A stretch of 44,847 nt of DNA from Candidatus Wolfebacteria bacterium RIFCSPLOWO2_01_FULL_47_17b (lineage in GTDB: Bacteria > Patescibacteriota > Minisyncoccia > UBA6257 > JAGOQP01), in NCBI GenBank assembly GCA_001793865.1, contig MGIS01000025.1, positions 29,178 through 74,024 of the forward strand, in the 5' to 3' direction. Shown here piece after piece: positions 36,165-38,396 of this stretch (positions within the stretch are counted from its first letter, which is position 1; each line of letters opens with the position of its first letter). The notes beneath the pieces were generated by a model. That model was not told the origin of the DNA, searched no databases, and saw only the letters and a list, made by a program, of their open reading frames with translations. The position numbers and the translations under genes were made by a program.

Positions 36165-37931
36165 TTATTCTATTATAGCTCTGATTCGCTTCGTGTTTTT
36201 GCCAAGCGATTCCTGCTTTATGATTTTAAATGTACCTATTTCTCCGGTATTTTGCACGTGTGGTCCGTTGCAAAACTCCGCGCTTACGACGGCACCTTCG
36301 GTCCCTATGTAATATACCTTCACAATGTCGGGATATTTTTCTTTAAAGAAGTGCAGCGCTCCGCTTTCTTCGGCTTCTTCTTTGGACATTTCTTTAAAAT
36401 ATACGGGAAGGTCCCTTTGTATAATTTCCTGCACGTCTTGCTGGATTGCGGCAATTTCTTCATTGGTCAGCCGGCGATCGAAGTTAAAATCAAACCGTAG
36501 GCGCTCGGGTGTTATATCCGATCCCATCTGCTGGACGCTTTCTTCGAGTGTTTTGCGCAGTGCTCGGTGCAGGAGGTGTGTGGCGGTATGCATGCGTATG
36601 ACACGCTTTAGTTCTTCCTCGCTTCCGGCTTTCAATTCTCCGGTGTCCAACAGTAGCCCGTGACCGCCGAATTTCTTTCCCGCCCCCGCTCGCGAAGTTT
36701 TCTGATGTTTTCTGAACGCTTCGTCGAATTCCGATTTGGATATTTTGCTGTAGACGTCGTCTTCAACGACTTCTCTAAGCAATTCAAACGGAAGCCCGAA
36801 TGATTCATACAGGTGGAACGCGTCTGTTCCGGTTATCTTTTTTTCTTTCTCAACGATTCGTGAGACCTCCAGGAGCCCCCGTTGAATGCTTGTGCCGAAT
36901 TTTTCCGACTCTTCCTGCCAGACGTGGATAACAGATTTCGGAGATCGAATTTCTGCGTATAGTGGTCCGTATTGTTTTGAGATAACCCCGGCGCCGAGCG
37001 CGAACGGGTCGGTGTGTATGTCGTTTTTCATTTTCAGCCCAATGATCTTTCGCAGGATCCTGCGCAATACGTATCCCGCATCTTTATTGCTGGGGGTAAT
37101 ACCATCGGCGATCATAAAAACGCCTGCGCGGATATGGTCGGCGAGTATACGGATATCACGGGTTGATGCTTCCGGCGCTTCCTGCGTGAGCATGTCTATA
37201 AGTGGCTTGAACGCGGATGTTTCGTATACGCTCTTTTTTCCCTCCGGCATGCATAACAGCCGTTCAAATCCCATGCCTGTATCCACTCCTGGGGTTTCAA
37301 GTTTTTTGTATTCAAAATGGTTTTGAGGTTCAACATTTTTTGTCACCGCGTAATATTCGTTAAACACAATATTCCATACCTCTATGTTGTCCACATAGAT
37401 TTCGGTCGTGGGGCCGCAAGGACCTTCGCTTCCGGTTGGCCCCCAGAAATTATCCGCACGGTTGCCAAATGCTATTTTTTCTTTCGGGAGTCCCATAATG
37501 TTGTGCCAGATTCTGAACGATTCCTCATCTTTCGGCGTGTTGGCATCACCTTCGAACACTGATACATGTATGCGCTGGGGATCTATGTGCAGGCGCTCGG
37601 TCAAAAATTCATATCCCCATCTGATCGCGTCTTCCTTCCAGTATCCGCCGAACGAAAAATTACCCATCATTTCGAAGAATGTGAGGTGCGTTTCGTCGCC
37701 TACCTCATCTATGTCGCTCGTGCGCACGCACTTTTGTATGGATACGGCGTTCTTTAATCCAAAATCCTTTTCGGCGTTGAGCTCGCCGGTGTAGTAGCGT
37801 TTGAATTGCTGCATCCCCGCGGTCGTAAAAAGCACCGACGGATCGGTCGGCACGAGCGATGACGAGGGCACGATGGCGTGGTCTCTTTCTTTAAAAAAGT
37901 CGAAAAATTTTTTCCTAACCTCCAAAAACAT
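36165..37931 (-). CDS. alaS: Alanyl-tRNA synthetase, short form without C-Ala domain
   Basis: MFLEVRKKFFDFFKERDHAIVPSSSLVP, TTAGMQQFKRYYTGE; editing motifs HTATH and CNGPH; ends just after editing domain; start corrected to 37931. Confidence 0.95.
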   Translation of the reverse strand: MFLEVRKKFFDFFKERDHAIVPSSSLVPTDPSVLFTTAGMQQFKRYYTGELNAEKDFGLKNAVSIQKCVRTSDIDEVGDETHLTFFEMMGNFSFGGYWKEDAIRWGYEFLTERLHIDPQRIHVSVFEGDANTPKDEESFRIWHNIMGLPKEKIAFGNRADNFWGPTGSEGPCGPTTEIYVDNIEVWNIVFNEYYAVTKNVEPQNHFEYKKLETPGVDTGMGFERLLCMPEGKKSVYETSAFKPLIDMLTQEAPEASTRDIRILADHIRAGVFMIADGITPSNKDAGYVLRRILRKIIGLKMKNDIHTDPFALGAGVISKQYGPLYAEIRSPKSVIHVWQEESEKFGTSIQRGLLEVSRIVEKEKKITGTDAFHLYESFGLPFELLREVVEDDVYSKISKSEFDEAFRKHQKTSRAGAGKKFGGHGLLLDTGELKAGSEEELKRVIRMHTATHLLHRALRKTLEESVQQMGSDITPERLRFDFNFDRRLTNEEIAAIQQDVQEIIQRDLPVYFKEMSKEEAEESGALHFFKEKYPDIVKVYYIGTEGAVVSAEFCNGPHVQNTGEIGTFKIIKQESLGKNTKRIRAIIE

Positions 37932-37953
37932 GATAGTAGTATAAAGTAACAGC

Positions 37954-37995
37954 GTCCGAGGTTCAACCTTGATCTGGGAAGGTTGAACCTCGGAC
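37954..37995. repeat. Perfect 17-bp inverted repeat GTCCGAGGTTCAACCTT-gatctggg-AAGGTTGAACCTCGGAC
   Basis: Direct reading. Confidence 0.92.
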
Positions 37996-38014: not shown

Positions 38015-38361
38015 CAAAAAAACCGGTCAATCGTTGCGATTGAACCGGTTAAAAATTCACAAGGACCCGCCGAGATTTATATTCCAACCCGTAGGTAAAA
38101 TATAAACTTTCGAATCTAAGGCTGTGGTATCTCACTGTCGGCTCGACGATACCCAGGAGTATCGTTTCATTGCCTCCCACCTATGCTGCGTCCAAAAATC
38201 CTATCTTTGGGCCAGAATCTCGGGATCGAACCGAGTTACAGACATAAAAACGTGTGGTACATGCACCAGTGTGCTGTACGGCACATTCTTATCCTCACTT
38301 ATGGGCGTCTATAAGGCCACCTCCATCCTGTTCCTCGTGAATGTAATTTATTCAAAATTCT
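38015..38361 (-). ncRNA. Stand-alone structured RNA gene (~345 nt) with tRNA T-arm-like and 23S L1-stalk-like modules
   Basis: Own promoter (TTGACA 38391-38396, N17, TATTAT 38368-38373), own terminator, no ORF; T-arm CTCGGTTCGATCCCGAG (38219-38235); ATAGGTGGGAGGC...GAGCCGAC...TGAGATACCAC (38124-38184). Confidence 0.8.
38021..38050 (-). terminator. Intrinsic terminator of the RNA gene
   Basis: Minus strand AACCGGTTCAATCG-caa-CGATTGACCGGTT then TTTTT. Confidence 0.88.
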
Positions 38362-38367
38362 GTTTGG

Positions 38368-38396
38368 ATAATATTCCTCTTTGCAAAAAATGTCAA
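38368..38396 (-). promoter_or_regulatory. Sigma70 promoter of the RNA gene
   Basis: TTGACA-N17-TATTAT (6/6 and 5/6 to consensus). Confidence 0.88.

Follow-up and report, generated by a model that had tools for sequence, protein, structure and literature searches.

The minus strand between rpoD and alaS of a Patescibacteria genome carries the gene of a structured RNA in which a tRNA-like elbow and an L1-stalk head of the 23S rRNA type are held in one molecule, and comparison with homologous genes in 21 other genomes indicates that this is a real, conserved RNA class of unexpected composition. The L1 stalk is a flexible arm of the ribosome whose paired T-loops grip the elbows of tRNAs in the E site. 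In this RNA a piece of 23S rRNA appears to have been reused as an independent gene. The composite architecture is well supported, and we hold it with high confidence. A fuller reading is evenly poised: the class may represent an L1 stalk that moved out of the ribosome and became joined to a tRNA elbow, and the resulting self-clamped mimic of the E site would regulate or protect ribosomes or tRNAs in bacteria lacking uL1.

The window, i.e. the whole stretch of DNA analysed, is 44.8 kb long (G000:C25:29178-74024) and belongs to a genome of 730 kb. The RNA gene is flanked by rpoD (Pfam sigma-70 regions) on one side and by alaS (tRNA-synt_2c) on the other, and its features are listed in Table 1. 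The initial annotation had described an RNA that combines a tRNA T-arm with a 23S-type L1 stalk and is bounded by a promoter and a terminator, and all the elements it named are present on the minus strand between the two genes. The promoter hexamers (TTGACA at 38391-38396 and TATTAT at 38368-38373) and the terminator read as described. In 20 of 21 members the region 5' of P1 (or of its counterpart) carries a promoter-like site scoring higher than the average of its shuffles, with a mean of 10.3 compared with 8.5. The strand of the window RNA folds better than its shuffles (z = -4.7). The minimum free energy (MFE) structure of this single sequence pairs the T-arm with strands of the stalk, unlike the comparative fold. 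ARAGORN found neither a tRNA nor a tmRNA in the window, and the T-arm 17-mer CTCGGTTCGATCCCGAG occurs only once in the 730-kb genome. The terminators of this RNA and of the RNase P locus (L009, G000:C3) both carry CGATTGACCGG..TTTTTTG, with 22/26 agreement, which is perhaps a favoured terminator sequence.

Table 1. Features of the RNA gene and of the adjoining alaS promoter region, in window positions
Feature	Positions	Strand	Basis or remark
RNA gene	38016..38362	-	predicted transcript from ~38362 to the terminator; promoter, terminator and homologous genes in 21 other genomes
RNA promoter, sigma-70 type TTGACA-N17-TATTAT	38368..38396	-	sequence
P1 5' strand ATTCACGAGGA	38332..38342	-	11 bp with 38055-38065
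Acceptor-like A-stem 5' strand CAGGAT	38325..38330	-	6 bp with ATTCTG
D-loop-like segment GGAGGTGGCCTT with GG	38313..38324	-	GG near the A-stem in most members
Inserted long hairpin between D-loop and T-arm	38241..38293	-	MFE fold
T-arm CTCGG-TTCGATC-CCGAG	38219..38235	-	sequence CTCGGTTCGATCCCGAG; invariant T-loop residues in the family
A-stem 3' strand ATTCTG	38213..38218	-	runs on from the T-arm without a break, as in tRNA; next base G, no conserved CCA
L1-stalk module: stalk base H76, H77, H78, two T-loops	38113..38201	-	23S alignment, covariation, E. coli 23S numbering
First stalk T-loop strand CGCAGCATAG	38181..38190	-	E. coli 2111-2120 region, includes G2112 equivalent
Second stalk T-loop strand AGTGAGATAC	38127..38136	-	E. 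coli 2165-2174 region, includes A2169 equivalent
P1 3' strand TCCTTGTGAAT	38055..38065	-	pairs with ATTCACGAGGA
Intrinsic terminator AACCGGTTCAATCG-CAA-CGATTGACCGGTTTTTTT	38016..38050	-	sequence
alaS promoter-like site TTGAAC-N17-TATACT	37938..37966	-	sequence; separate, 3' of the RNA's terminator

Searching the order (244 genomes) at the DNA level yielded four weak matches to the stalk, of which two are 23S and two (L081 and L083) are not; each of the latter has a promoter upstream, and L083 also has a T-arm at equal distance. A covariance model built from these loci (R1) and its successors (R2 and R3) were run over the order, a draw of the class and a draw of the phylum, amounting to ~930 distinct Patescibacteria genomes. 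The top-scoring matches and the second matches of genomes with two matches were inspected and sorted by flanking 23S sequence. Most proved to be true 23S stalks and were set aside because 23S sequence flanks them. Outside 23S there are 22 loci, the window's and 21 more, and this prevalence is a lower bound because weaker matches were inspected in part only. The members are distributed over the order (G000, which is the window's genome, G031, at a contig end, G066, G070, G126, G144, G150, G219, G226 and G229), the class (G276, G317, G336, G343, G514, G539 and G549) and the phylum (G591, G720, G768, G880 and G897). R3 gave 79.9-85.5 bits for six members on which it had not been trained and 74.9 for a seventh, and 58-77 for the 23S stalks of member genomes; since the score ranges of 23S and of divergent members overlap, only the flanks decide. 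The flanks of 23S domain V are absent around all 22 loci, so that none qualifies as a 23S gene or fragment, and a separate 23S stalk was found in 11 of the 22 member genomes.

The distribution is sporadic, with the RNA in 10 of the 244 genomes of the order and, within the window's family, in the window's own genome alone out of 13. A DNA search in that family returned two chance matches, L012 lying within an rmuC-like gene, and a strict 23S-like pattern run over the order matched the window alone. A GTDB-wide pattern scan, which was too strict, had its sole match in Candidatus Wolfebacteria RIFOXYD12_FULL_48_21, with the sequence of the G229 locus. A pattern match in a viral contig (L261) was rejected, being located in a phage coding region and drawing no match from the covariance model, and phage records gave no match to the RNA.

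Read from 5' to 3', the family order is the promoter, the 5' strand of P1, an 'AACA' motif (to which the AA preceding CAGGAT in the window corresponds), an acceptor-like stem of 4-7 bp, a D-loop-like segment, usually with GG, an insert of variable length, the T-arm, the acceptor-like 3' strand (often ..UGG), a 12-17-nt linker to the stalk base, H76, T-loop 1, H77, H78, T-loop 2, H76', a variable piece, P1' and the terminator. There are exceptions to this order: G336 has no recognisable A-stem, the T-arms of G219 and G150 are atypical or unaligned, and P1 was looked for and not found in G126 and G144. In two members, G066 and G070, the terminator stem and the 3' strand of P1 overlap. The RNA of G539 is ~215 nt long. 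Three loci from different families (L166, L201 and L142) have a TCGAAGTC or TTGAAGTC string just 5' of P1'.

Covariation among the members carries the structural assignment. In 15 aligned members, 92.7% of the cells are paired compared with 67.0% after shuffling, and 88 cells compared with 26 have changed on both sides. The covariation score is 0.741 compared with 0.207 for shuffled alignments, none of 500 shuffles reaches the observed value, and sliding the partners by 1-3 columns lowers the score to 0.21 or less. MAFFT aligned the members by sequence, without fitting to structure, and the helices were placed by hand. For P1, the A-stem and the stalk base, the strands were annotated by hand and the partners swapped between members 2000 times, and none of the 2000 swaps was as high as the observed pairing. 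P1, identifiable in 13 of 17 annotated members, is 98% paired compared with 47% after swapping, the A-stem of 14 members 100% compared with 48%, and the stalk base 97% compared with 48%, all three being upper estimates because hand-picked strands favour complementarity. This bias is counterweighed by the length of P1, usually 8-11 bp, and by the position of the A-stem 3' strand, which is fixed after the T-arm; the T, H77 and H78 helices of the 15-member test are less exposed to it.

The elbow half begins inside P1 with the A-stem. Where its 3' strand adjoins the T-arm, the gap is 0-1 nt in all 14 members with an A-stem, as in tRNA. On the other side the insert between the D-loop-like segment and the T-arm is variable and nearly absent from the shortest members, so that the distance from A-stem to T-arm ranges from 11 to 106 nt. 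As a candidate counterpart of the D-loop G18G19 of tRNA, a GG is present no more than 12 nt from the A-stem in 13 of 14 members, weakly above chance (shuffled mean 9.1, P ~0.01). The equivalents of T54, C56 and A58 in the T-loop are invariant in 15 of 15 members, the T-stem is 98.7% paired, and each of its five pairs has changed on both sides in some member; with these T-loop residues and a paired T-stem, the half has the sequence hallmarks of a tRNA-like elbow. The initial annotation had the T-arm right, and comparison corrects three of its other details: the closing helix is P1 rather than GGACGC/GCGGGTCC, ATTCTG pairs with CAGGAT, which comes right after P1 as in the relatives, rather than with an AGAAT at the 5' end, and the CCA after the T-arm is not supported as a tRNA 3' end and probably stands there by chance, the sequences after the A-stem being variable with no CCA common to the relatives. 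At one locus (L202, G066), two T-arm-like hairpins (CAGGGTTTGAATCCCTG and CGGGGTTCGAATCCCCG) are found within ~100 nt 5' of the stalk.

The stalk half resembles the ribosomal stalk in sequence as well as in helix order. The best non-self blastn match of the RNA in the window's genome is the L1 stalk of that genome's own 23S rRNA, with 54 of 78 positions identical, no gap and E = 5.5e-6. The stalk core is 59 nt long in most members, as in 23S. Because of this ungapped identity and equal length, the stalk looks derived from 23S rRNA; the word 'mimic' used earlier understates the relation. The helices H76, H77 and H78 are present with covariation, as expected of a homologous L1-stalk module. When the members are mapped on E. 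coli 23S, the G2112 equivalent is G in 17 of 22 and the A2169 equivalent is A in 18 and G in 3. Within the first T-loop strand, A2114, G2115 and A2119 are each kept in 21 of 22 members and U2118 in 22, and within the second A2171 is kept in 22 and A2173 in 21. The UUU that precedes GAA in H78 of 23S varies freely. In the ribosome, the tRNA pair G19-C56 stacks on the 23S pair G2112-A2169 (PMC5309774). These stalk residues are largely kept in the RNA.

Several side observations concern the linker and the 23S genes themselves. Most members have a loose unpaired motif GG(A/C)NAGNA (e.g. GGAGAG or GGCAAGA) in the linker between A-stem and stalk base, about 5-10 nt 3' of the A-stem. The 23S rRNA gene of the window's genome (L015, G000:C12:18351-22636) is ~4.3 kb long, with an insertion a short way 3' of the L1-stalk region that bears a LAGLIDADG-like reading frame, and the 23S gene of a second genome (L016, G007) is over-long too. 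Insertions of the LAGLIDADG type are common in rRNA introns of these bacteria.

Both partners of an elbow-stalk contact are, by alignment, kept in one molecule at almost constant spacing, the length from T-arm to stalk base being nearly fixed at 115-127 nt across members. The explanation that we favour overall, by a modest degree, is a stand-alone, trans-acting RNA that forms a self-clamped elbow-stalk particle acting on translation. In it, P1 encloses two neighbouring modules: a minimal tRNA-like elbow, made of a short acceptor-like stem, a D-loop-like segment with GG and the T-arm, and a 23S-derived L1-stalk head 12-17 nt downstream. The stalk head would stack, through G2112-A2169, on G19-C56 of the elbow in the same RNA, and the outcome would be a compact copy of a tRNA gripped by the L1 stalk in the E site. 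Such a particle may compete for or titrate factors or deacylated tRNAs that engage the interface between elbow and stalk. Docking of the stalk on its own elbow in cis is somewhat probable, and the translation-related role is more tentative. Alternatively, the RNA could be a sponge or sensor of tRNA in trans, in which a free stalk head captures deacylated tRNAs by the elbow and the elbow of the RNA itself acts as an autoinhibitory lid or as a dimerisation partner. The conserved elbow-binding residues agree with this alternative, as does the use of the double T-loop motif on tRNA in trans by RNase P, by T-boxes and by the L1 stalk (PMC4810234). However, the nearly fixed spacing and the presence of an elbow mimic within one molecule speak more for docking in cis, and neither an anticodon-reading nor a CCA-reading element was found, which makes capture in trans rather unlikely.

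The genomic contexts bear on a quite different possibility, namely that the RNA is a cis leader of alaS, e.g. an unusual T-box that reads tRNA to control termination. The RNA is located 5' of alaS, from which a terminator separates it, and Stem I of T-boxes has the same double T-loop motif (PMC4810234). However, the RNA's terminator is followed by a promoter-like site of alaS itself, ~7 nt upstream of its ATG at 37931. Elsewhere in the family, rpoD has mostly stayed next to alaS, and this RNA is absent from the interval. Among the members the flanking genes, named by eye from their translations, vary: uvrA/uvrB (in two species of one genus, with uvrB also beside the G066 copy), argS, rplU, trmD, a DEAD-box helicase with a TypA-like gene, a ribonucleotide-reductase-like gene, an mltG-like gene and others. 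In over half of the cases the longest downstream frame found runs on the opposite strand. The T-box model (RF00230) does not match the RNA, and the homologs of the RNA have no constant aminoacyl-tRNA synthetase or amino-acid gene downstream. Because the neighbouring genes differ and a leader of a single gene would keep its gene, the RNA is, judging from these contexts, trans-acting, and an alaS leader is highly improbable. Two features of the alaS region are recorded here as well. A near-perfect hairpin GTCCGAGGTTCAACCTT...AAGGTTGAACCTCGGAC before alaS (37954-37995) overlaps the alaS -35 element, and similar AGGTTNAACCT hairpins occur at ~10 other places in the genome, which marks it as a dispersed repeat or a type of terminator. 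The alaS product (36165-37931) is a short AlaRS of 588 aa that matches the catalytic and SAD domains only and is devoid of the usual C-terminal extension.

H77 and H78, both contained in the stalk, are the place where uL1 binds in other bacteria, and this would favour a uL1 decoy or a uL1-binding regulatory RNA. However, the uL1 profile (PF00687) matched none of the 17 member genomes inside the class (of 22 in all), and it matched all 14 control genomes. Consistently, a survey of ribosome biogenesis reports that the class Paceibacteria keep H78 without rplA (PMC12641178). Barring a uL1 so divergent that PF00687 would miss it, a uL1 decoy is refuted for the window's genome, and we regard it as barely credible for the RNA. 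Since the absence of uL1 is reported as a trait of the whole class, it gives no evidence that the RNA replaces uL1. The initial annotation had proposed binding to uL1 or to the tRNA elbow; the conserved residues fit the second partner, and the first falls, for these 17 genomes, with the absence of uL1.

A decayed, functionless fragment of 23S and tRNA would account for the true similarity to the organism's own 23S stalk, but is contradicted by compensatory changes in every helix, conserved promoters, a single composite architecture in 22 genomes and the lack of 23S flanks, and can be practically dismissed. The same applies to a divergent tmRNA or RNase P RNA, which the size, the closure by P1 and the T-arm recall: the models of tmRNA (RF00023) and RNase P RNA (RNaseP_bact_a and RNaseP_bact_b) do not match the RNA, whereas the genome has both true genes over the cut-off (tmRNA at G000:C4, 102.8 bits; RNase P RNA at G000:C3, 111.2 bits), so that those jobs are taken. 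No Rfam 15 family reaches its gathering score anywhere in the window, nothing relevant appears at the locus at E values up to 10, and 20 member loci gave nothing in Rfam except one unrelated tRNA. Together with its conservation and covariation in other genomes, this bears out the earlier view of an undescribed structured RNA. Within the open part of PubMed Central (subscription journals may differ) and Rfam 15, the class has apparently not been described so far.

Compared with known systems, the RNA is closest to the 23S L1 stalk (H76-H78), with which it has in common the sequence, the order of helices, the stalk length, the T-loop strands and mostly the G2112 and A2169 equivalents. Unlike that stalk, it is a separate gene with a promoter and a terminator, joined to an elbow and closed by P1, and the UUU of H78 is not conserved. 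Its occurrence in Patescibacteria without uL1 makes the action of stalk RNA without the protein testable on the short G539 RNA. With the tRNA-like domain of tmRNA it has in common a T-arm continuous with an acceptor-like stem, a reduced D-arm and a stand-alone gene; however, it has no CCA end and no Rfam match, no tag frame was seen in it, and its chain runs on into the stalk. T-box Stem I and the specificity domain of RNase P likewise stack interdigitated T-loops on the tRNA elbow, and three RNA classes with this grip have been listed (23S, RNase P and T-box), with more expected (PMC4810234). The present RNA has no sequence or architectural match to the T-box and RNase P modules and no conserved target gene beside it. 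Those modules are convergent, whereas the module of this RNA would add a further elbow-gripping RNA class that is homologous to the ribosomal stalk.
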